Of a stretch of DNA of 64,000 nucleotides, positions 53,461-64,000 are shown in pieces. Location of the stretch: contig NZ_CP047355.1 in NCBI RefSeq assembly GCF_030408815.1, positions 62,001 to 126,000 of the forward strand. Reading direction: 5' to 3'. The DNA comes from Corynebacterium freiburgense. GTDB lineage: Bacteria > Actinomycetota > Actinomycetes > Mycobacteriales > Mycobacteriaceae. The notes beneath the pieces were generated by a model that was given only the letters and a program-made list of their open reading frames with translations, did no database searches and was not told where the DNA came from. A program made the position numbers and the translations under genes. Each line of letters begins with the position of its first letter. Positions within the stretch are counted from its first letter, which is position 1.

Positions 53461-54243
53461 ATGGAACACGGTGGGCTCCAAGGCCCCAAAGGTCAAGACG
53501 AACATTGGGAGCAGTGGCCTGGAGAAACAGCAGAGACGCAGGCTTGGCAATCCAATGAAACCATGGAATTTGCACCAATTCCGCCGACTGTGGCACCTGT
53601 ACCTCAGTATCACCAACAGTACCAATATGAGTACCAATACCCCTACGAACCACCGAAAAAGAACCATGTACGGGTGATGGTATCCATACTGGTATTTACG
53701 TTATTTGCCAGCATTATGGTGGCGGCGAGCGTCTACCTTTTCAGCAATAGCAACTGGATGCTGACTGCGAATAAAAACAATACAAACAGCCGAAACGACC
53801 AGACTGTGACGGTAACAGTAACTACTGAATCCACTGCCACCTCAAGTACGAATACAAGCACGAGTACGTCCGAGACGACGAGTTCAGCGGAGCCAACTAC
53901 TGAGGAAAACCCAAAACCAGAGCTATTGACTGATTCTGGTTGGGAAGATGACAGTGTAACGCATTGCTCGAGCTCAGAGACTCTAGTATTTGCGGGGCGG
54001 GATGCCAAAGGCGACAATATAACGGTATGTAAAGAGGACTCTGTCCTGCGCTATCGATCCAATGTGAATAACGGAACACTGGATGATACCCGAGTTACAC
54101 TCGAAGGAACGATTGCAGATGGCGGAAATTATGTGGTGAACGTTCCGCCTTCTTCAATTGAGATCTATGCCGGTTACCTCGAGGTATATACCAGAGGAAA
54201 GCATTCCAAAACCCTGGAATTCACCGAATGGTGGGCCCAGTAG
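53461..54243 (+). CDS. Single-pass membrane protein with stalk and outer Cys-pair domain (260 aa)
   Basis: Not recognised as a named family. A cytoplasmic Pro/Gln/Tyr-rich head (to residue 70) is followed by a span (71-95, 'RVMVSILVFTLFASIMVAAS'). A Thr/Ser-rich stalk (about 105-150) leads to an outer domain with cysteines at 169 and 190. The layout is the same as the C-terminal half of the membrane Hsp70 at 59309. It converges with the dynamin gene at 54263 (19 bp between stops). A GATCG-type spacer precedes the ATG; the ribosome site is weak. Likely part of the same envelope system; role unknown. Confidence 0.75.
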   Translation: MEHGGLQGPKGQDEHWEQWPGETAETQAWQSNETMEFAPIPPTVAPVPQYHQQYQYEYQYPYEPPKKNHVRVMVSILVFTLFASIMVAASVYLFSNSNWMLTANKNNTNSRNDQTVTVTVTTESTATSSTNTSTSTSETTSSAEPTTEENPKPELLTDSGWEDDSVTHCSSSETLVFAGRDAKGDNITVCKEDSVLRYRSNVNNGTLDDTRVTLEGTIADGGNYVVNVPPSSIEIYAGYLEVYTRGKHSKTLEFTEWWAQ

Positions 54244-54262
54244 CCGTTACAGTAGCGGAAGA

Positions 54263-55687
54263 CTACCGGCCCTGCAGATGGTATTGGGCCATACGGATTA
54301 ACTCACCATATGCGCGTTTCATGGTGACCAATGCTGCATCTTCAGCCGCAGTAAGCGCTGATAATGACTCCATATGAGCCCATTGCATCTTTTCCTGTGC
54401 AGTGGAGAGCGCTTCTTGCATAGATGCAGTAGGGGGCAAACCAAGCTTTTCCTGCAGCGTATAGCCCATAATAAGCACACTGATTTCTGGAATTATTTTC
54501 GCTTTAGGATCAGCTTCCTGCACGGCTTTAAGATCCAATAGCAAAAACGCATTAATAAGCCGCGCATCAGTGCGCATTGTGGATACCAGATTTAAGATAA
54601 GATCCTTGGGCTGCTTGCGGAATGCGAGACTTTCTATTTCGCTTACAATGCGTCCGGCACGGTGCGTTGTTGCAAACTCCCCAAACCGAGTAACTAAGAG
54701 ATTCCGGAGCTGGGGGACACCAGACCGGGCGGTTGCCCATTCATTAAGTTCACTTGCCCCGCGGCGGGCAACATTTCTTGCTCGGAAAAGCCCATATTCA
54801 CCAATGAGTTTGACGATTCTCCGGCACGCATCGCGTTCCCTATCAAATTCTTCTTCGGAAGCTATTTTTTGAATTAGATCAAACTCGGTGGCATTCGCAA
54901 GGCTTGCCATCGCACGGGCGTCATATTCCGTAATAGCACCTGTATGAGAGGTTTCCGCAAGTAAGCCTGCAACAGGTAGAATGGTCAATACTGATCCCTG
55001 CAATTGTTGCGCTAATGACTGTGCATGTTCATAAGCATGCTCAAGGGGATCGCGTTCTCCAAGGGCGCCTTCGCCGAAGGAATCGGCGCGAGATAAGACG
55101 CCGAGGGTATTAAGTGATGTGAAACCAAGGTCACGAATAAATTTCACTTCATCCATGCGTGGTGTTGCATCAAATAAAAATACGGCAGCATCAGCATCTA
55201 CGGACATTGCTTTGGTTTGTTCGAAACCATCGATAAGGATTCGGCGAGTGCGTGCCTCATTTTCGACGGTCAGAGTAGCTAAGCCAGGCGTATCAATGAG
55301 CGAAAAATCCCGGATTGAGGCAGTTGGCATCCATCTGTGAATGTAACTAATTTTCTCAGCGGGAGCAGGAAGTTCAGCCGCCTTGCCGCGCTGAATAGTA
55401 ATGGGAAGCCGCTGCCCATCAAGAAGTACTGCTTCTGCTCTGTCCGGGGCACCGTATTGAAACACGGTGACCACATTGGTCGCTTCTAACGCTGCTGTTT
55501 CTGCGACGGGCGCCCCAATAAGGGCATTTACTAGCGTTGATTTACCAGATTTTAAACGACCAACAACAACGATACGCGGCGGCGCTTCTAGGGTTTGTCG
55601 AATGCGATTCGATTCCTGCTGAAGTTCAGGGCTAAGGCTCCCAAGGTAGTCCAGCGCTTGATTGAGAGCGGTAGTCATAAGATCCAT
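54263..55687 (-). CDS. Dynamin-like GTPase (IniC-like, 474 aa)
   Basis: G1 'GRLKSGKSTLVNALIG', a G2 Thr in 'EATNVVTVFQYG', G3 'LIDTPGL' and G4 'LSRADSFG' mark a dynamin-superfamily GTPase. A long helical C-terminal part follows ('LLLDLKAVQEADPKAKIIPEI', 'AMQEALSTAQEKMQWAHMES'). There is no clear membrane span, unlike its partner. It lies 6 bp after the other dynamin gene, so the two are co-transcribed, like iniA-iniC of mycobacteria. Bacterial dynamin pairs remodel or protect membranes. ATG 55687 or 55678. Confidence 0.9.
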   Translation of the reverse strand: MDLMTTALNQALDYLGSLSPELQQESNRIRQTLEAPPRIVVVGRLKSGKSTLVNALIGAPVAETAALEATNVVTVFQYGAPDRAEAVLLDGQRLPITIQRGKAAELPAPAEKISYIHRWMPTASIRDFSLIDTPGLATLTVENEARTRRILIDGFEQTKAMSVDADAAVFLFDATPRMDEVKFIRDLGFTSLNTLGVLSRADSFGEGALGERDPLEHAYEHAQSLAQQLQGSVLTILPVAGLLAETSHTGAITEYDARAMASLANATEFDLIQKIASEEEFDRERDACRRIVKLIGEYGLFRARNVARRGASELNEWATARSGVPQLRNLLVTRFGEFATTHRAGRIVSEIESLAFRKQPKDLILNLVSTMRTDARLINAFLLLDLKAVQEADPKAKIIPEISVLIMGYTLQEKLGLPPTASMQEALSTAQEKMQWAHMESLSALTAAEDAALVTMKRAYGELIRMAQYHLQGR

Positions 55688-55693
55688 ATGGGC

Positions 55694-57628
55694 TTAACCT
55701 CGCGTTTCGCCCCATGCGGACGGTTGGGCCGCAGAATTGGGGGTGAATGGTTGCGTTTCTGTTTGGGCGTTTTTGGCCGCAGCCGCAGCGTATGCTGTTA
55801 AATCACGGATTGTTGCTTCAGCGGTTGCAATATTCTTTTGGATAATTTGGAGGTTTTTCTCCAAAGTGGCCTTGCGCTTTTCCTGGCTTGCTTTATCTGC
55901 GCGCGCAGCACGTTCAGCTTCTTGGATTTGTTTTTGGGTGGATTCCACCATCTGCTTGAGGTTTTCCCGGTAGCGCAATTGGATCGCTGGGCGCGCATTA
56001 GCAATTGCGGCTTCCAGGACCTTCGATGTAAGCATTTTCGACGTCGCGGTCGTCTCCTTCATCCAGTTAAGGAGGTTTGTTTTGCCCGAACGCATAGCTC
56101 GAAAGCCCACATTAAAGGCGACCCAACCAACACCAACTACTGCGCCTAGACCAGCAAAAGTTACAACGCTGCCGATTAGGCCACCAAGCATAGAACCGCC
56201 TGAAATGCCCATCATAAGCATCATTGGATCCAAAAGACCTTGGCTTTTTTGCTGAACGTTATGCGTCTGGAGCTGTTTTCCAACGAATGCCGCACTTACC
56301 TCATTACGAATTTCTTCCCAGTCCATTTCGGACTTAAAGCGAGGTCGCACAATTTTATGCTCGAGCTCATACGAAAAGTAATTCAGTGATTCTGCGATTG
56401 CAGTCTGGAATTCTCGCTCCATTTCCGCAGTAAAATACTGCGGGTTTTTGCGAAGCACCGCCATGCCTTGCTTATTAATACGCTCAGTCCAGGATTCTCG
56501 GAGTGCATCAAGGCGCATCTCTAACTGCTCCATAGATTCCTGGCGAATAATGGTCAGGTCACGACCTAAATAATAATCCCAGCTTTCGCCTTCCTTTTTT
56601 AGTTGGTTGAGTTCTTCAAGCCGGTTTGAAAGGTCAGGAACAGCGGCTTCGCCTTGCCGTAAAATCTCAAGCTTTTGGTTGAGCTCGTCAGACAGCTCCC
56701 GAAGGCCCTTCACTGCGATGCGCAGCCCATTAGCCAACGGCAGGAACTCTGCGATTTGGAATTTGCTTTGAATCATCTGACGAAGTTCATTGATTCCGGA
56801 GAGTTCGAGTACTTGCCGTGAGTGCGGGCCAGATGTCATTTCTGCACCTACTACAGCAAGCAAACTAGAAACACCTATAACAGGAATGTCTCTCCCAATA
56901 TGGGTGCGGAGCAAGCGTTTATTTTCATCAACAATCTCTTGCCAGCGAATGAGGTTTTTATCCGTTTTTGTAACAGCAACGATAATGGCCTCAATATTCG
57001 ATCCCGTATCTTTAATAAAGTCCATTTCGGGTTTGGTGATTGTGGTGGAAGCATCACAAACCACAACAAGTACGCATGCTTGATCTGCCGAAACTTTTGC
57101 CAATGTAGATAACTTAGGATCTAATCCACCCACACCTGGTGTATCTATAACGGTAGCATGACCAAGAGGCATATTTCGAAGGGGGATAGTTGCCCTTGTT
57201 GGAAGCGAATCTTGTTCTAGATCTTTGGAATGTTCTGTGCCAGCATTAATCCAAGATCCTAACTCAGCATGGGAAACAATGCGTTCCCCATCTGGATAGA
57301 ACAAGCATGCTTGGCCTTCGCGCAAGTTCTCAGTTTCTGTGGTGAGCGCTATAGGGGTAGAAGTGGTGACATTCACACCCACAGGAGAGGCGTTTCGCTT
57401 GCCAACGAGCGCGTTTACTAACGAGCTCTTGCCACGCTTTACCTCACCAACAACTACGACTGACCGGGATTGTTGCTTGCTTGAGGCTTTTTCAATGGCA
57501 AGGTCACTGATTTCGTTGTAATCGTATTGCCGCAGGATTTTATTTGTTATGGCAGTCAGTAGCTGATTAGCGCGTTTCTCCATGTCGCCGTGGTCGGCAT
57601 TCTGAGCATCTTGTATCTGAGAATTCAC
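55694..57628 (-). CDS. Dynamin-like GTPase with membrane segment (IniA-like, 644 aa)
   Basis: G1 'GEVKRGKSSLVNALVG', G2 'NVTTSTPIALT', G3 'VIDTPGVGGLD' and G4 'VTKTDKNLI' are complete. The helical middle holds 'EELNQLKKEGESWDYYLGRDL'. A hydrophobic hairpin 'LMMGISGGSMLGGLIGSVVTFAGLGAVVGVGWVAF' fits a membrane-inserting paddle. The C-terminus is a coiled coil ('QKQIQEAERAARADKASQEKRKATLEKNLQ'). First gene of the dynamin pair. The start ATG 57628 is divergent from the lipoprotein at 57781. Confidence 0.92.
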   Translation of the reverse strand: MNSQIQDAQNADHGDMEKRANQLLTAITNKILRQYDYNEISDLAIEKASSKQQSRSVVVVGEVKRGKSSLVNALVGKRNASPVGVNVTTSTPIALTTETENLREGQACLFYPDGERIVSHAELGSWINAGTEHSKDLEQDSLPTRATIPLRNMPLGHATVIDTPGVGGLDPKLSTLAKVSADQACVLVVVCDASTTITKPEMDFIKDTGSNIEAIIVAVTKTDKNLIRWQEIVDENKRLLRTHIGRDIPVIGVSSLLAVVGAEMTSGPHSRQVLELSGINELRQMIQSKFQIAEFLPLANGLRIAVKGLRELSDELNQKLEILRQGEAAVPDLSNRLEELNQLKKEGESWDYYLGRDLTIIRQESMEQLEMRLDALRESWTERINKQGMAVLRKNPQYFTAEMEREFQTAIAESLNYFSYELEHKIVRPRFKSEMDWEEIRNEVSAAFVGKQLQTHNVQQKSQGLLDPMMLMMGISGGSMLGGLIGSVVTFAGLGAVVGVGWVAFNVGFRAMRSGKTNLLNWMKETTATSKMLTSKVLEAAIANARPAIQLRYRENLKQMVESTQKQIQEAERAARADKASQEKRKATLEKNLQIIQKNIATAEATIRDLTAYAAAAAKNAQTETQPFTPNSAAQPSAWGETRG

Positions 57629-57724
57629 AACTCTTCACTTTCGGGGACAACGCGGTTCGATCATTCACCTTAGCTAAAAGTTTAAGTACCTGTAACCTTT
57701 GAATGACGAGTTGCATCCAACACT

Positions 57725-57730
57725 TATAGT
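57725..57730 (+). promoter_or_regulatory. Candidate -10 element for the lipoprotein gene
   Basis: TATAGT 51 bp before the ATG at 57781; no good -35 at standard spacing, so an alternative sigma factor is possible. Confidence 0.3.
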
Positions 57731-57780
57731 GGGCTGCAAACACAACAATGCCCAGTATTCGGATTCTTGAAGGAGACACA

Positions 57781-59103
57781 ATGAAAAAGCTGAAGATCGG
57801 CATAGCGGTTCTGTTAAGCGCAACTATGCTCACTGGCTGCGGTGTTACTGATTTTGTGCAGGGTTTTAAGGACGGTTATGCTGACGCGGCTAAAGAGCAG
57901 TCTCCGGATACTGGGGGAAAGGCGGAAAAGTCTGAAAAGAAGTTAGACACTGGTAAATATAAAACTGAGCCAAGTGTATTAAAGAAGGATACGGACGCAG
58001 AGGTAGTTCGTACAGTTGAGTCATACGTCTTAGCTGAGTATATGCCGTTGCCATATGAGGTAGACGGGATCCTAACTTCTACAAAAGGCGGCTATAACAT
58101 CTACGGTCCTGGAAGTATGTCGCTTCATATGACCAATAATCAAATTAAAATCTTGGAGCAATTCCCACTGTTGTATGGGTATCTTCAGGCGGCATCATCA
58201 CCTACAGAAAAAGTGAATGACCCGCATTTTTCAGTGAACCACGCGGTGCTCCGATTTGAAGATCCGGATAGCGCACTAAGGTTTGCTGAAGCTGAAAATG
58301 TTGAGTCGTTGACGGTTGGCCCCATTTTCTTGGAAAATGAGCCACCTAATCCTGGTGAAAAAGTCGAAATTGAAGGTTTGCCAAATACTTTGGTGACCTC
58401 GAACTATGCGGAATACAACGATTCGGTTTCCTTCTCCGCTTTTACCCCGCTGGAAGAGTATGTGATTTACACATGGGTATCCACTCCAGCAGCAGAAGCA
58501 GCTTGGGGGCCGGACTACATTAAGAAGGCGCTAGAAAAGCAAGTTCCGATGCTGGAACAATTTCCTTCGGTGAAAACAGGCGCCGGGTTCGGCAAGACCG
58601 ATCAATACCCTTCGATCGATCCAGGCGGTGTAGTGATTTATACCGTTGAAGCAGGTGAAGACGATCAGAAACGTGTGCCTGGTTCCTATGGTCCTCGTGG
58701 AATTGCTTCTCAATTTACAAACCCAAAGGCTATCCACGACACACTCGTACAGACTGGTTCTAAGCATATTGGACGCAGGGAATCATTTGTGTTCCGTGCA
58801 GACAATGATTTCGGCGCAAAGTCTATTTTGAACGCATTTGTCTCAGATAATCTGCAAAGCGGTGAGGTTGAGTATGAGGAACCACAGGGAGTTCCAGACA
58901 CGACATGCACGATGTCTGAGTCCACAAATGGGGTTCAATATAACTGCTATGTGGTGAAAGGCCGCTATGTTGGCTATGTGAGTGGAAGTTCTGACACCAC
59001 CAAGGAAAACATCGAAGAAAAGAAGAAATTGGTTTCCCAAAAAATCGCAGCTCAATACATGATTCTTCAGAAAGCTGATCAAGAAGCGGGTAAAGATAAG
59101 TAA
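57781..59103 (+). CDS. Large lipoprotein of unknown function (440 aa)
   Basis: Signal and lipobox 'KLKIGIAVLLSATMLTGC' place it on the outer face of the membrane with the acylated Cys at residue 20. The mature part starts with a charged linker, then 'YVLAEYMPLPYEVDGILTST', 'SVNHAVLRFEDPDSALRFAEAE' and 'DDQKRVPGSYGPRGIASQFTNPKAIHD'. A later portion has two Cys ('DTTCTMSESTNGVQYNCYVVKGRYVGYVSG'). It resembles large actinobacterial lipoprotein families of unknown role. GAAGGAG precedes the ATG. It is followed by a terminator, so it is a separate transcript between the dynamins and the Hsp70 gene. Confidence 0.88.
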   Translation: MKKLKIGIAVLLSATMLTGCGVTDFVQGFKDGYADAAKEQSPDTGGKAEKSEKKLDTGKYKTEPSVLKKDTDAEVVRTVESYVLAEYMPLPYEVDGILTSTKGGYNIYGPGSMSLHMTNNQIKILEQFPLLYGYLQAASSPTEKVNDPHFSVNHAVLRFEDPDSALRFAEAENVESLTVGPIFLENEPPNPGEKVEIEGLPNTLVTSNYAEYNDSVSFSAFTPLEEYVIYTWVSTPAAEAAWGPDYIKKALEKQVPMLEQFPSVKTGAGFGKTDQYPSIDPGGVVIYTVEAGEDDQKRVPGSYGPRGIASQFTNPKAIHDTLVQTGSKHIGRRESFVFRADNDFGAKSILNAFVSDNLQSGEVEYEEPQGVPDTTCTMSESTNGVQYNCYVVKGRYVGYVSGSSDTTKENIEEKKKLVSQKIAAQYMILQKADQEAGKDK

Positions 59104-59117
59104 TACCCGATGAACTT

Positions 59118-59156
59118 AAGGGAGCTCTGCTTGAGTAAGTTAAGAGCTTCCTTTTG
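59118..59156 (+). terminator. Terminator after the lipoprotein gene
   Basis: AAGG and AGCTCT pair with AGAGCT and CCTT across a one-base mismatch, followed by TTTTG. Confidence 0.75.
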
Positions 59157-59251
59157 TTATGTGCGTTTAGATGCTAAAAATTTTCTGTCCAGATTTGGTA
59201 TGCCCCTAAATATTGGGTGTAACAAATTAGGGCTGCTCTGCGTCTAATCTT

Positions 59252-59278
59252 TTGACACATAAAGTGAAGTGCTACGTT
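59252..59278 (+). promoter_or_regulatory. Candidate promoter of the membrane Hsp70 gene
   Basis: TTGACA (59252-59257) and TACGTT (59273-59278), 15-bp spacer, 31 bp before the ATG at 59309. The -35 is perfect, but the spacing is short. Confidence 0.4.
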
Positions 59279-59308
59279 ACATGCGAATAAATCGGAAAGG
59301 CAACAACG

Positions 59309-61210
59309 ATGTCGCGGAATCATTGGACCATAGGGATCGACTTTGGAACTTCGAATACAGCGGCAGCGCACACGAACCCTATTAAAGGCACCGTAGAGGC
59401 GGTTAACCTTAGCCATGATCGCACAACGATGTCTTCTGCGGTGTATGTGGAATCACCGGAGCAGATTGATGTCGGTGATGTGGCCGTTAATAAAGCGGAA
59501 AGCAATCCTGCGGGTTTTGTTCCTGCCCCCAAGCGGGTTATTCCGCAACAGATGTTCCAGATCAATGGTTACGACGTCCCTTCATCTATGCCGGTGGCAG
59601 CTGTACTGTCCTCCGTGGTTCAGCGTGTTTCCCGTGAACATGGCAATGAGCAACCTTCCGAGCTTGTGCTGACTCACCCAGAAGCGTGGTCATCGAATGA
59701 AATTAAGGTGCTATTGGATGCGGCGGCGCAATTAGGTCTTGAAGCAGCGAAGATTACTACGATTTCCGAGCCGCAAGCAGCAGCCCACTACTATTCTCGT
59801 GCTAAATCTCTAGAGCCTGGTCAGCGAATCGCGGTGTTCGATTTCGGTGGTGGGACCCTGGATATTGCTGTGTTGCAGGCAAATGAAAACAATACCTTTG
59901 ATGTGATTGCGGCTCGTGGCGATAATACGCTTGGTGGGAAAAGCTTTGACGCGCTGATGCGTAAATGGGTTGACCAGCAGCTGGAAGACCGAAACCCAGA
60001 CCTTCTGGACTATTTCCGCACACAAGCTCCACTTCAAGAGCGTCATGCTTTGGAAGATTCCATCCGCCGTGCAAAAGAATTGCTTTCGGAAGCTTCGTAT
60101 GCAACTGTCGCGGTAAGCGGGCGTGGCGAAACAGAGCGATTTCAAATAACTCGTGCGGAGTTTGAACAGCTTATTTCCCCATTGCTGGAAAAAGCAGCAG
60201 AACTTACGCAAACTACGCTCGCTGATGCAGGCATTACGGATGCGAGTGAACTTGTTGCGCTTTATCTTACGGGTGGTTCCTCCCGGATACCGATTGTGCA
60301 GGAGCGCCTGAAAGAATTTGGGCCTTTAGCAACCCTAGATGATCCCAAAACCGTTGTAGCCCAGGGTGCAATTTCTGCGCTTGGGCCAATTGTGCGGGGC
60401 ATGACTCCGCAGAATATGGGGGCTCCTCAACCTGAATTCGGCGCGTCAACCGGAGCTGGGTGGGCGTCGACACCTCAAACAAACAATAACCCCTATCAAC
60501 CGCAACCAAGCCAAGTACCGGCAGCATTTACGGGTTCTGCAAAAGGTGGTGATATGACACCAACAGCGAAATCGAAACTAAGCACCCGAACCATTGGAAT
60601 CCTTGCAGCAGCGGCAGTGGCGGTATTGGTCATTGGCGGGATCAGTACGTATAAATTCGTGAGTGGACAAAACGGCAATGCAACGAATACTTCAGAAACC
60701 ATAGCGTCGAGCGAGCCTAGTTCTGAGCAGGGGAACTCGGGACTACAAACAAGTGTGCCGGAAGAAGACAAACTGGATTCCCTAGATAAAGTGGTTGCTG
60801 CCGTGCCAGCTACTATTACAGCGTCTACGGACAAGTGCAAAATCCGAGAAACCGGGGAGACTGGCGCACTGCACGTGCGTTGCGAAATTAAAAAAGATAG
60901 TCCCGATTTTCAGTACTTCACTATGAAAAGTGACTATGACATCCCGCAAATAGAGTTTGCGATAGATCCACACGAATCTACATTCGAACGACGTAGGATC
61001 GTTCAAGGTATCTATGAAGACCGCGATCAAGACAACTTAATCGTGGAAGATGAAAGCGGCACGAAAGCGGCGCACTTTGTGAATGTGGATTCTCAAAGTA
61101 GCTACAGGATGAAATACGCAAATACCGAAACTGGACTGCTGTTGTCTTCATCGGATTTTAAGGACAAAGCTACGGGTGAAGAATACCTGCGTTCCAAGGG
61201 ACTGCTGTAA
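59309..61210 (+). CDS. Membrane-anchored Hsp70-type ATPase (633 aa)
   Basis: Residues 5-360 are an Hsp70/actin-fold ATPase with 'IGIDFGTSNTAAA' (phosphate 1), 'VFDFGGGTLDIAV' (phosphate 2) and 'LYLTGGSSRIPIV' (adenosine). The peptide-binding domain of DnaK is missing. A Pro/Gln-rich linker (370-420) leads to a span (428-450, 'IGILAAAAVAVLVIGGIS'). A Ser/Thr-rich stalk and an outer domain with Cys510 and Cys525 follow. The ATPase would lie inside the cell, so the protein could couple an outer signal to a chaperone-like switch. GGAAAGG precedes the ATG. It is not the housekeeping DnaK. Confidence 0.92.
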   Translation: MSRNHWTIGIDFGTSNTAAAHTNPIKGTVEAVNLSHDRTTMSSAVYVESPEQIDVGDVAVNKAESNPAGFVPAPKRVIPQQMFQINGYDVPSSMPVAAVLSSVVQRVSREHGNEQPSELVLTHPEAWSSNEIKVLLDAAAQLGLEAAKITTISEPQAAAHYYSRAKSLEPGQRIAVFDFGGGTLDIAVLQANENNTFDVIAARGDNTLGGKSFDALMRKWVDQQLEDRNPDLLDYFRTQAPLQERHALEDSIRRAKELLSEASYATVAVSGRGETERFQITRAEFEQLISPLLEKAAELTQTTLADAGITDASELVALYLTGGSSRIPIVQERLKEFGPLATLDDPKTVVAQGAISALGPIVRGMTPQNMGAPQPEFGASTGAGWASTPQTNNNPYQPQPSQVPAAFTGSAKGGDMTPTAKSKLSTRTIGILAAAAVAVLVIGGISTYKFVSGQNGNATNTSETIASSEPSSEQGNSGLQTSVPEEDKLDSLDKVVAAVPATITASTDKCKIRETGETGALHVRCEIKKDSPDFQYFTMKSDYDIPQIEFAIDPHESTFERRRIVQGIYEDRDQDNLIVEDESGTKAAHFVNVDSQSSYRMKYANTETGLLLSSSDFKDKATGEEYLRSKGLL

Positions 61211-61227
61211 CCAGGAGTGCGTGCAAT

Positions 61228-61253
61228 GGCTTGGTTTTTAACCAGGCCTTTTT
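61228..61253 (+). terminator. Terminator after the Hsp70 gene
   Basis: Stem GGCTTGGT/ACCAGGCC with one G-T pair and a 5-nt loop, then TTTTT. Confidence 0.85.
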
Positions 61254-61406
61254 GCTTATCTACAGATAAAACCAAAGTTAAAACACCATTTGACCTGGCG
61301 AAAAAGAAAAATAAAAAAGTGTTGTAACTTTTACCCGCCGCGAGGTGTCTAAATACTGTCAAGCAAATCGGCGATGGCAAAAGAAACGCAAACCGAAAGG
61401 GAAATC

Positions 61407-62327
61407 ATGAGCAACGATCCAATGCAGGGTATCCGTGAGAACATTGAGAATGCAACGAGTCACGTTGAGGGAATGGTAAACGACTTTACCCGTGGTGCTT
61501 CAGGTTCTTCCGATTCCGCACCTCAAGCGCAAACCCCAGAACCTGCCGCACCAGCGGAAGCGCCTGAAGCTACCGCAGCTCAGGAAGCGCCACAGTCCAT
61601 GCCTGCAACAGGTGAAAGTGGTCCTGGACCTGCTGCACCAAATAATGCTGCAATGGGGAATTTGCCAACAGACAACAGCTCATATTCCAAAGATGAAGTA
61701 GTACTTGATGATGCAAACGACGTGCAAAATCACGTTTCTTCTCGTGATGTCGATGGCGATGGCAGCATCGACGTAGTGCATTCGATCGTTGATGGCGGTC
61801 AGCGTATCAGCTACCTGGACGACCAGGGCGAAGTAATACTGACTGACGTTGATGCCGACCATGATGGCACGTTTGAAACCGCCGTTATCACAACCGAAGA
61901 CAATGTAATCGTGGCAGGCACCGATACCGATAACGATGGTGATTTTGACACCATTACCTATGCTGATGGACGCACTGGTGCGGTCTTCCAGGAGGATACC
62001 CTCGTTGATGGGGCTGTTGCATCATCCCGCATGGATCTTGACAATGACGGTTTGACCGATATCGAGCTTATCGACGAAAACCTTGATGGGCACTTTGAAA
62101 AGGCTGGTGCTGACACCAATATGGACGGCAAAGCTGACGTAGTCTATCGAGACATTAATGGCGATAATACCTTTGACTACGCCTCATACGACTCCGATGG
62201 CGACGGCATAATGGACACTAACCTTGATGCAAATGACTTTGGTGCAAGTGGCATGGGGGACGTCTCCGGCTTTGAGGCAATGGGCCACACTGATGATCTG
62301 GGGATGGATCCTTCAGCCGGTATCTAA
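61407..62327 (+). CDS. Protein with eight DxDxDG calcium-binding loops (306 aa)
   Basis: Residues 1-100 are an Ala/Pro/Gln/Glu-rich low-complexity head. From about 105 the chain repeats EF-hand-like loops: DVDGDGSID, DADHDGTFE, DTDNDGDFD, DLDNDGLTD, DENLDGHFE, DTNMDGKAD, DINGDNTFD and DSDGDGIMD. These alternate with short beta-like stretches, as in dockerin-like or thrombospondin-3-like repeats. No signal peptide is present, although most such proteins work outside the cell. ATG 61407 is chosen because AAAGGGA lies just before it. First of three small acidic-protein genes between the Hsp70 and sigma genes. Confidence 0.88.
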   Translation: MSNDPMQGIRENIENATSHVEGMVNDFTRGASGSSDSAPQAQTPEPAAPAEAPEATAAQEAPQSMPATGESGPGPAAPNNAAMGNLPTDNSSYSKDEVVLDDANDVQNHVSSRDVDGDGSIDVVHSIVDGGQRISYLDDQGEVILTDVDADHDGTFETAVITTEDNVIVAGTDTDNDGDFDTITYADGRTGAVFQEDTLVDGAVASSRMDLDNDGLTDIELIDENLDGHFEKAGADTNMDGKADVVYRDINGDNTFDYASYDSDGDGIMDTNLDANDFGASGMGDVSGFEAMGHTDDLGMDPSAGI

Positions 62328-62333
62328 AAACTT

Positions 62334-62383
62334 GCTCTTTGGCATAGTTGGTTTTTCTCCCTGTATCCAGCTTGCCAAAGAGC
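62334..62383 (+). other. Hairpin between the calcium-loop gene and the C39-like gene
   Basis: A perfect 11-bp stem GCTCTTTGGCA/TGCCAAAGAGC around a 28-nt loop, followed by GTTCTTC. It could be a weak terminator or a processing site that lets the three genes be expressed at different levels. Confidence 0.55.
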
Positions 62384-62430
62384 GTTCTTCGCTAATAGTG
62401 CTTATTTATATTTAACAAAGGAATAAAACA

Positions 62431-63360
62431 ATGACTATGGGTGACTACGACGGCATACTTAACTCTGATGGATTAAATTCGCTTTTTGAGTTTAATGAAT
62501 TAGAAGCCGATACCTACCCAACTGAGGATTATGTTAGCGAAGATGCATTTCCAGTCCCGGACAACGATCCATTAAGCATCTCTACTCCAGAGACTGAATC
62601 TGCTCCGGAGTTGGAGGACCCAAATCCTGAAACCGAACTTACTGACCCACACGACACTATGGATTTCGGTGTTATTGAAGGTGATCAGCCGACCGAGCAA
62701 CCTGTGGAACCACAAATAGAAGATCCTTCAATTACTCCAGAAGATGACGGAGTTTATGGAAATTCATATGAGTGGAATACCGACTGGTTTTTCCAAGAAG
62801 TAGACGGTTATTGCGGTCCAACTTCAGCAGCGATTATTGTGAATGAATATCATGACGCCGGTATCGCTGATCCACAATATATGGTGAACCAAGCATATGA
62901 ATTAGGCTTAACCCAAGACATTTCTAAAGGAATGTATATGTCTGATGTGGCAACATTGCTGGAATCTTCAGGTGTGCCATGTGAAAACGTCACAAGCTCA
63001 ATGGAGGATTTATCGAACCGCCTTGAGCAGGGTTATGGGATTATTGCTTTCGTCGATTCTGGTGAATTGTGGGGCGACCAAGGCGACATGGTTACTGAAG
63101 ACGATTTGCCTGATCACTTTTTAGTTGTCACCGAAATTAATATGAATACTGGTATGGTGACACTAGCGGATCCTGGCCATCCAAATGGAAATGGAATGCA
63201 GGTCCCTATTAGTGAGTTTGAAGATGCATGGGCGGATAGCAATTACGAAATGGTAGCTACTACCAATGTGGATTCTGAGCTTGCTGGAGCCACTGGAGGC
63301 GCGGTAGGCAATCCACAACTTGCAATTGCCAATGTGACGCGCAGCGAAGTTATTCAATAG
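62431..63360 (+). CDS. C39-like papain-fold protein with acidic N-terminus (309 aa)
   Basis: Residues 1-110 are acidic and low in complexity. The C-terminal domain matches the peptidase C39-like fold: Gln122 and Cys128 in 'FQEVDGYCGPTSAAIIVNEY', His229 in 'DDLPDHFLVVTEINMNTG' and Asp247 in 'VTLADPGHPNG'. All members of the catalytic triad are in place, so it could be a real protease, peptide-bond or isopeptide-bond hydrolase. No signal peptide and no ABC transporter domain, unlike bacteriocin-processing C39 enzymes. Start ATG 62431 with AAAGGA site. It may act on the calcium-loop or acidic neighbour; that is inference. Confidence 0.88.
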   Translation: MTMGDYDGILNSDGLNSLFEFNELEADTYPTEDYVSEDAFPVPDNDPLSISTPETESAPELEDPNPETELTDPHDTMDFGVIEGDQPTEQPVEPQIEDPSITPEDDGVYGNSYEWNTDWFFQEVDGYCGPTSAAIIVNEYHDAGIADPQYMVNQAYELGLTQDISKGMYMSDVATLLESSGVPCENVTSSMEDLSNRLEQGYGIIAFVDSGELWGDQGDMVTEDDLPDHFLVVTEINMNTGMVTLADPGHPNGNGMQVPISEFEDAWADSNYEMVATTNVDSELAGATGGAVGNPQLAIANVTRSEVIQ

Positions 63361-63405
63361 CATTGAAGTGAGATTTGGTAATCAAAGGATTGGTGGAGGA
63401 TAAAG

Positions 63406-63777
63406 ATGTCAAGCGGAGATAAGTCTCCTATTGAGCCTGATCTGTCTTTACCTTTAGGGGCTCTTGATCAGGGCGTGTGGACTCGAATCCTTCAAGATGC
63501 TTTTGAAATGTCAGAACACGAAATTGATGCTTCAATTGTTCCGGACTTTGATGAAGCCGCTGAAATTGAATTAGCCGATGATGATTTCGGTGAATTCATA
63601 CTTGACGATGATCTTGTGGACGAACCCAGTTTTGAAACTGAGCCACACGACACGGATTCAGTAGGCGATAGATTATTCGAAGATAATGAAAACGAGATTC
63701 AAGATTTTGAAGAGCTGACTGGGCTGGATTTAGGCGAGATTGACTCCGTCTCAGATGATTCCTTCGATTTTGAATAA
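63406..63777 (+). CDS. Very acidic protein of unknown function (123 aa)
   Basis: Not recognised. A short N-terminal segment ('DLSLPLGALDQGVWTRILQDAFEMSE') looks helical; the rest is dominated by Asp and Glu ('ELADDDFGEFILDDDLVDE' and similar), which suggests an unstructured or calcium-binding chain. No signal or span. It lies 45 bp after the C39-like gene with a GGAGGAT ribosome site and is followed by a strong terminator, so it is the last gene of that unit. The acidic style matches the N-terminus of the C39-like protein. Confidence 0.75.
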   Translation: MSSGDKSPIEPDLSLPLGALDQGVWTRILQDAFEMSEHEIDASIVPDFDEAAEIELADDDFGEFILDDDLVDEPSFETEPHDTDSVGDRLFEDNENEIQDFEELTGLDLGEIDSVSDDSFDFE

Positions 63778-63780
63778 CGG

Positions 63781-63818
63781 AAAAACGGATGCCCCTAGTT
63801 TATGCGGCATCCGTTTTT
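63781..63818 (+). terminator. Terminator of the acidic-protein unit
   Basis: A perfect 13-bp stem (63781-63793 with 63806-63818) with a 12-nt loop; the right arm ends in TTTTT. Confidence 0.9.
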
Positions 63819-63951
63819 GTTTGGATTGAGGTGGTAGAGGCGAGCGAATCACTACGATAATAGTGAGTGTCTCCGCTAGAGTTGGTGGGGCGAGAATATT
63901 ACGTGAACAATGATGCTAGTGTTCGGTTGTTGAATGAAAGTATTTGAAACT

Positions 63952-64000
63952 ATGAGTGATGTGGAACTATTGAGCAAGGCTCGCGAAGGCGACCAACGAG
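63952..64000 (+). CDS. Sigma-70-family factor, N-terminal fragment
   Basis: Cut by the window end after about 16 codons. 'MSDVELLSKAREGDQR' is the classic opening of region 2 in ECF and other short sigma factors. An in-frame ATG at 63934 would add six residues. A small palindrome (TCACTA and TAGTGA around 63849-63866) lies about 90 bp upstream. Its position just after the calcium-loop/C39/acidic genes suggests it could control them or the neighbouring envelope genes; the rest of the gene is needed to judge. Confidence 0.65.
   Translation, partial: MSDVELLSKAREGDQR

Follow-up and report, generated by a model that had tools for sequence, protein, structure and literature searches.

Do a pair of dynamin-like GTPases, a membrane-anchored Hsp70-type ATPase and an extracytoplasmic function (ECF) sigma factor that are encoded side by side form one system, and if so, what does it serve? 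The question is raised by a locus of Corynebacterium freiburgense at the end of a 64,000-nucleotide stretch of contig NZ_CP047355.1 (positions 62,001 to 126,000; this whole stretch is called the window below). On the minus strand, the locus carries dynC and dynA, which encode the two GTPases. On the plus strand, it carries the genes for a DUF7373 lipoprotein, the Hsp70-type ATPase (Hsp70-TM), a protein with calcium-loop motifs (Ca-loop protein), a C39-like protein, an acidic protein and the ECF sigma factor. A sequence-only reading of the window had inferred from these genes, together with that of a stalked protein beside dynC, a single calcium- and envelope-stress-responsive module of membrane repair or defence. 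By computation, we show that the genes other than that of the stalked protein belong to a linked unit found across species, that the sigma factor forms its own clade and that a shared promoter precedes several of the genes. We consider it likely, though by no means settled, that they constitute one genetic module, a second and ECF-sigma-driven relative of mycobacterial iniBAC that acts on the plasma membrane and the envelope.

We analyzed the distribution of the genes in a set of 151 Corynebacterium genomes. dynA gave matches at 1e-10 in 25 genomes, 22 of them below 1e-90 and 3 near 1e-32. Hsp70-TM matches below 1e-80 were found in exactly these 22 genomes (hypergeometric probability of the shared distribution, 6e-27, ignoring relatedness); the further Hsp70 matches listed, those of DnaK and of a small number of divergent copies from modules, were at 6e-40 or weaker. 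The module sigma profile scored at least 199 bits in 27 genomes, namely, the same 22 and five more (G013, G024, G034, G039 and G102), in which divergent or broken module Hsp70 and dynamin genes lie near the sigma gene; dynA is cut by the contig end in G024 and lies in pieces in G013. The other full-length ECF factors listed scored about 122 bits or less against this profile, and G010 has a broken sigma remnant at 162 bits. Within the genus, dynA/dynC, Hsp70-TM and the ECF sigma factor stand or fall together. G010 contains only fragments of the acidic-sigma pair (L173:8786-9350), apparently from a decayed module.

In the wider family, the dynA profile matched 190 of 301 genomes, representing 27 of 31 genera. 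The scores were bimodal, with module proteins at about 300 to 940 bits and a lower group, mostly of the IniA type, at 213 bits or less, and many genomes hold both a module dynA and an IniA-type gene. We assessed 62 neighborhoods, which were chosen via dynA or Hsp70 matches and thus are no random sample, and counted the 50 with a dynA above 290 bits, 12 loci (L083-L093 and L102) having been set aside beforehand. Genes were called at thresholds of 230 bits for hsp70, 190 for dynC, 120 for sigma, 100 for C39, 25 for the lipoprotein and 12 for the acidic protein, and a composition rule was applied to acidic and Ca-loop open reading frames (ORFs). Within 10 kb of dynA, we found dynC in 47 loci, Hsp70 in 44, a Ca-loop ORF in 40, the sigma gene in 37, an acidic protein in 37 (of which 32 matched the profile and the others met the composition rule), the DUF7373 lipoprotein in 25 and the C39-like protein in 17. 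Several loci run into contig ends, so that these counts are lower bounds, and related genomes are not independent. dynA and Hsp70 occur together in 14 genera. All 37 sigma loci had an acidic candidate, located on the same strand as the sigma gene in 35 and, as called, at most 300 bases upstream of it in 27. A homolog search for the acidic protein scored only 7993 candidates and is partly a reflection of acidic composition. At class level, 9 of 296 genomes matched at 1e-45. In G506, from another family, dynA, dynC, Hsp70, the sigma gene and a Ca-loop ORF are grouped; G565 holds dynA, dynC, sigma and Hsp70. For neither genome did the Hsp70 ORF give a flagged membrane segment.

As support for one system, the sequence-only reading had asked for the Hsp70-TM gene to recur with the dynamins and with the C39-like gene. 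Recurrence with the dynamins was found, both in the 22 shared genomes and in the 44 of 50 loci. Recurrence with the C39-like gene was found in part: the protein occurs in 7 of the 151 genomes, all of them among the 22, but just 17 of the 50 loci have it near dynA, and in G089 it lies far away. In the window genome, the unit is flanked, as judged by eye, by dnaQ-, murT-, gatD- and recR-like genes on one side and by a leuA-like gene on the other. Among the 62 loci, these flanks are common only to L004 and L023 (leuA also to L024), indicating that the unit sits at different places elsewhere, and since the cluster recurs in other genomes with other flanks, it is not a product of chance. Accessory genes come and go, and one might see in these genes ordinary neighbors without a common function. 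We find this hardly credible in view of the identical phyletic distribution, the recurring neighborhood with different flanks and, as described below, the shared promoter and the separate protein clades; for dynA, dynC, Hsp70-TM, the sigma factor and the acidic protein, it is already contradicted. The idea of one system held for this core of dynA/dynC, Hsp70-TM, sigma factor and shared promoter but not for the stalked protein. Its gene is real, but no homolog was found at an E value of 1e-3 in 22 loci or at 1e-20 in the 62 loci, showing that it is not in the conserved unit, and no module promoter lies in front of the gene. We therefore dropped it as a module member.

The promoter emerged from a scan of all pairs of a 5-mer and a 4-mer in 327 upstream stretches and 279 intragenic controls, made with no preset motif. 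The top dyad, GGAAC-N16-GCAT, was present in 41 of the upstream stretches and in none of the controls. Most lineages follow the wider consensus CGGGAAC-[ACT]TT-N-CGCATC, and that of the window follows TGTAAC-N-CGTCTAA. With reversed patterns as the control, the combined pattern gave 82 sites in the 50 loci (956 kb) and the reversed one gave 3. Sixty of the 82, spread over 32 loci, are placed immediately before a module gene: the Ca-loop gene in 23 cases, the acidic gene in 13, the lipoprotein gene in 11, the Hsp70 gene in 11, and the C39 gene and dynA in 1 each. In 13 whole genomes, the pattern GGGAACHTT-N10..14-GCATC, drawn from an overlapping set of loci, had 46 sites in 11 genomes (none in G098 and G103) and 2 when reversed; 33 of the 46, including none of the 4 in G091, are at most 12 kb from dynA or on a contig with the rest of the module.

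The window genome (2.96 Mb) contains three sites of the form GTAAC-N16..19-KTCTAA, compared to 23 for the reversed pattern, and two of the three belong to the locus, one at 59219 before hsp70 and one at 61324 before the Ca-loop gene. Because the TGTAAC variant was derived partly from the window, its enrichment there is only in part an independent finding. The lipoprotein gene has a third window site in front of it, TGTAAC-N16-GCATC, which L004 and L023 retain as well. The first pattern, GGAAC-N-GCATC, shows no clear enrichment in the window genome (17 sites, versus 8 reversed), and none of these sites is in the window locus. Module genes share an ECF-type promoter, and it is presumably the module sigma factor that reads it. 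Promoter type and region 4.2 of the sigma factor vary together: region 4.2 has K-V-R in the seven TGTAAC loci, the window included, and [KR]-[ST]-R at the corresponding position in 23 GGGAAC loci; neither promoter motif was found in eight sigma loci. The six of the seven TGTAAC loci that are in the dynA tree fall in one clade, so that the switch in promoter and region 4.2 looks like a single event. The 13 sites before the acidic gene, which is next to the sigma gene, predict self-amplification. A site before dynA itself was rarely found (1 of 60), so that the co-regulation of dynA is only putative.

Of the 13 sites outside the module, 9 lie before ORFs that have a hydrophobic segment and encode stalked, Sec-type, or small or multi-pass membrane proteins, which speaks for a role at the membrane and envelope; 1 precedes a small soluble ORF, and 3 have no assigned gene. 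A Pfam search of eight genes behind motif sites yielded little, with two matches above the cut-off, to DUF6338 and, for a different gene, to a nuclease domain. The off-module sites also bear on a different explanation, in which the locus directs cell-surface differentiation (adhesion, aggregation or vesicle release) instead of a stress response and the dynamins release membrane vesicles. Off-module promoters found in tandem arrays (L144 and L150) ahead of genes for stalked and small membrane proteins, as well as those ahead of genes for Sec-type proteins (L153 and L158), would suit such a programme, as would the link of LeoA to vesicle secretion (PMC4159319). However, the off-module genes differ among genomes and no vesicle or surface phenotype is known, and we regard this explanation as quite unlikely.

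Several places outside the module deserve mention in their own right. L144:5108-8787 (G091), far from the module, is an array of genes for small membrane proteins whose N termini resemble one another; three module-type promoters lie there in a span of less than 2.5 kb. L150:3072-7565 (G321) and L155:3503-4453 (G091) contain genes for membrane-anchored stalked proteins, arranged as a tandem array in L150, and in each of the two loci such a promoter precedes one of these genes. In two different genomes, L145:5811-6329 and L157:6729-7211 encode proteins of 160 to 172 amino acids (aa) with a similar N-terminal pattern and no Pfam match at 0.1, each behind a module-type promoter. G194 has two copies of the acidic-sigma pair with a module-type promoter nearby (L147 and L148); they lie on different contigs, in stretches that share their ORFs, and apart from the dynamin genes.

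We next consider the known systems to which the unit can be related. By script, dynA has the GTPase motifs G1, DTPG and TKTD, and dynC has G1, DTPG and SRAD; hydropathy reveals a hydrophobic segment near residue 480 in the relatives of dynA. Both GTPases carry the G1, G3 and G4 motifs and a Dynamin_N domain, which places them among the bacterial dynamin-like proteins, and both are predicted to remodel membranes. The closest solved relative of DynA is IniA (6j72; 120 bits with profile A2). The sequence-only reading was right to see an IniA/IniC-like dynamin pair in these two adjacent GTPases, and its comparison with iniBAC was apt. IniA cuts membranes in vitro, and its authors propose membrane repair (PMC6715688).

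An adjacent pair of bacterial dynamin-like GTPases is what the module has in common with iniBAC. Moreover, a non-DnaK Hsp70 gene lies near 8 of the 11 IniA-type loci fetched, and 7 of these 8 Hsp70s have a predicted membrane segment. This is in line with the dnaK-like gene located directly downstream of iniR in Mycobacterium smegmatis (PMC5760070). In the unrooted dynA tree, 27 module rows and 11 IniA-type rows lie on opposite sides of a branch with support of 99/97, with the caution that the IniA-type L083 and L093 are nearer the module side (92/77) and that some rows are long; the dynC rows join the IniA-type side by long branches. The unrooted Hsp70 tree splits 27 module rows from the 8 ini-linked Hsp70s (97/97) and from 4 DnaKs. 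The module differs from iniBAC in that its larger GTPase falls outside the IniA group in the unrooted tree, in that its linked regulator is an ECF sigma factor and not the IniR ATPase, and in that Hsp70-TM ends in a folded two-cysteine domain, whereas six of the eight ini-linked Hsp70s end in Gly-rich tails. Among the eight locus proteins, Pfam and NCBIfam gave no IniR-type ATPase, and NCBIfam gave no match to IniB up to an E value of 0.1, the presence of an IniB model in NCBIfam being unchecked. From the trees and the ini-linked membrane Hsp70s, a dynamin pair with a membrane Hsp70 appears to be the common theme of two branches with different regulators.

Hsp70-TM consists of an ATPase head (residues ~1 to 360), a linker, one hydrophobic helix (~427 to 447, by eye) and a folded outer domain (~490 to 633), in agreement with the Hsp70 ATPase with an outer domain that had been read from the sequence. 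The nucleotide-site residues of the head are conserved, and the model compares to Hsp70 heads with a TM-score of ~0.8 by target length. A substrate-binding domain was not found: DnaK-type Pfam and NCBIfam matches stop near residue 355, beyond which the model has a low-confidence linker, the helix and the outer domain. The mean predicted local distance difference test score was 83 for the full model and 90 for the outer domain alone, modelled with three sequences. The outer domain contains two conserved cysteines and gave no clear fold match. The head is presumably cytosolic and the C-terminal part outside. Hsp70-TM shares the type of its ATPase domain with DnaK and HscA but has the hydrophobic helix and the outer domain in place of their substrate-binding domain, and it forms a clade apart from the four DnaKs. 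We also noted a module-type Hsp70 head of 393 aa, with no membrane segment flagged, that lies outside any module (L159:7446-8627, G149); by eye, it adjoins kinase-like and von Willebrand-like genes.

For the remaining proteins, the features that the sequence-only reading had described were also confirmed, and all of the genes are present at their coordinates (Table 1). The Ca-loop protein, which may bind calcium, has the eight loops claimed for it by the pattern D-x-[DN]-x-[DN]-[GA] and five by the stricter D-x-D-x-D-G (script). In the C39-like protein, which has an acidic N-terminal tail, the protease triad is intact, with CGP at 128, DH at 228 and ADPG at 246 (script); Cys-His-Asp is kept in 17 of 17 loci copies by pattern and in the window copy in the alignment, and protease activity is predicted from these motifs. 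The acidic protein, with 42 acidic residues out of 123, belongs to a family whose members share a short conserved stretch at the N terminus. What had been seen as a sigma factor start opens a full gene of ECF size, whose product is kin to other small sigma factors of the genus by score and has the conserved blocks in alignment A3, in keeping with an ECF factor that has regions 2 and 4 only. ORF choice was heuristic throughout, with no gene caller, and most so in high-GC loci, so that gene starts, acidic-sigma gaps and some genes after off-module sites are possibly wrong. For the lipoprotein, the true start is probably the ATG at 57781, directly before the signal peptide (by eye).

Table 1. Genes and signals of the locus, in window coordinates
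Feature	Coordinates	Strand	Remarks
Stalked protein, single membrane helix, small outer domain; beside dynC	53461..54243		
dynC, shorter dynamin-like GTPase, 474 aa	54263..55687	-	Dynamin_N 6.6e-12 (Pfam); G4 = SRAD
dynA, larger dynamin-like GTPase, 644 aa	55694..57628	-	Dynamin_N 7.4e-18 (Pfam)
Putative module promoter TGTAAC-N16-GCATC, 5' of lipoprotein gene, divergent from dynA	57691..57717	+	
Lipoprotein	57748..59103	+	DUF7373 N part 5.4e-34, C part 2.5e-19 (Pfam); lipobox LTGC
Putative module promoter TGTAAC-N18-GTCTAA, 5' of hsp70	59218..59247	+	1 of 3 genome-wide matches
Hsp70-TM	59309..61210	+	HSP70 1.2e-39 (Pfam), ATPase head only
Terminator-like hairpin behind hsp70	61228..61248	+	Such hairpins across the region not enriched over shuffles
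Putative module promoter TGTAAC-N18-GTCTAA, 5' of Ca-loop gene	61323..61352	+	
Ca-loop protein, acidic	61374..62327	+	DUF6802 weak match, below cut-off (Pfam)
C39-like cysteine-protease-fold protein	62431..63360	+	Peptidase_C39_2 1.1e-07 (Pfam)
Small acidic protein, 123 aa; gene precedes sigma	63406..63777	+	No Pfam match
ECF sigma factor gene, 184 aa	63934..64488 (window holds 63934..64000; end beyond window); L002:12935-13489	+	

By eye, we saw no Sec signal in the Ca-loop, C39-like and acidic proteins. This would fit a type VII or other non-Sec export accessory, with Hsp70-TM powering or gating the export of these three signal-less proteins. Also in favor of such a role is L025:517-18759 (G149), where a second module copy (dynA, the lipoprotein, two Hsp70-TM genes and dynC) is interleaved with the ecc genes of a type VII locus encoding EccC, EccD, a mycosin-like subtilase, EccB and an Rv3446c-family protein, and TIGR03931, the model of the Rv3446c family, matches 4 of 59 Hsp70-TM proteins at an E value of at most 0.1 (best, 7.1e-05). 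However, the other 61 of the 62 loci have no ORF matching the five L025 type VII proteins at 1e-5, and the window Hsp70 has no TIGR03931 match at 0.1. Export seems to us decidedly improbable as the function of the locus. Type VII secretion was also rejected as its general context, ecc linkage being found in 1 of the 62 loci (L025) only.

The locus might instead be an anti-phage or other conflict system armed by the sigma factor. Its dynamins would then close or cut membranes upon infection, or else set off damage to them. The patchy presence (22 of 151 genomes) at varied sites is consistent with this, as are the PADLOC matches of DynA to LeoBC (2.5e-19) and LeoA (3.9e-14) and of DynC to LeoA (8.9e-07). 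In addition, a 1597-aa ORF that is kin to the anti-phage ProA/Hhe helicases, below the family cut-offs, flanks the module in L027:3-4796 (G055). The matches to LeoBC and LeoA, however, reflect the dynamin fold, which is the likeness between these proteins and the module; we know of no Hsp70 or sigma partner of LeoA/LeoBC. Of the other six proteins, PADLOC matched none except, weakly (0.0025), the stalked one, so that the window proteins gave dynamin-fold matches and one weak match but no complete known defence system. Ten flanking proteins yielded three DinG-type helicases, one subtilase and one weak match (1.6e-06) in PADLOC, which is no recognizable defence set. A defence island was rejected as the context, several of the ten being housekeeping types (DinG helicase, Obg GTPase and AMP-binding enzyme). 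Since PADLOC matches below 1e-5 were obtained for the two dynamins only, the defence module envisaged by the sequence-only reading is not favored, and we hold it to be unlikely. Actinobacterial GTPase-HSP70 conflict systems have been described, one of them with an HSP70 without a peptide-binding domain (Kaur et al. 2020, PMC7159879); among those described are systems with GAP1-N2 GTPases, GrpE, DnaJ fusions or tubulins, and the main text of that study mentions neither a dynamin nor a sigma factor.

We return to the likely explanation, an ECF-sigma-driven relative of iniBAC, which probably maintains the cell envelope. In such a module, the outer domain of Hsp70-TM, perhaps with the lipoprotein, would sense the state of the envelope. 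The acidic protein may be a partner of the sigma factor or an anti-sigma factor, and the freed sigma factor would turn on the lipoprotein, Hsp70-TM, Ca-loop, acidic and sigma genes. DynA and DynC would remodel or seal the membrane through GTP-driven assembly. The Hsp70 head may act on the dynamins or on the acidic partner: as a membrane-tied ATPase without a substrate-binding domain, it could be a switch, driven by nucleotide, for putting the dynamin coat in place or taking it apart. Where present, the C39-like protease would probably process one acidic protein of the module. More tentatively, and with considerable doubt, we can picture Hsp70-TM as the hub of a self-amplifying envelope-repair switch, in which the outer domain reads the envelope and the ATPase cycle both frees the sigma factor from an acidic anti-sigma factor and controls sealing or cutting by the dynamins; iniBAC with its Hsp70 would then be the sister branch.

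Among the open-licence PubMed Central papers found by word searches, we recognized none that describes the combination of dynamins, Hsp70-TM and sigma factor. The module seems to be a so far undescribed relative of the mycobacterial ini genes, which are induced by drugs. The role and partners of the Ini dynamins are an old question of the mycobacterial drug response. The locus indicates that such dynamin pairs travel with a membrane-anchored Hsp70-type ATPase, here with a sigma factor and predicted promoters of their own, and the module is also found in Rhodococcus-type relatives, which are safe to handle. Sigma factor and promoter provide a direct handle on the regulon, and the pairing of Hsp70 and dynamins offers a concrete idea of how bacterial dynamins may be switched on and off.

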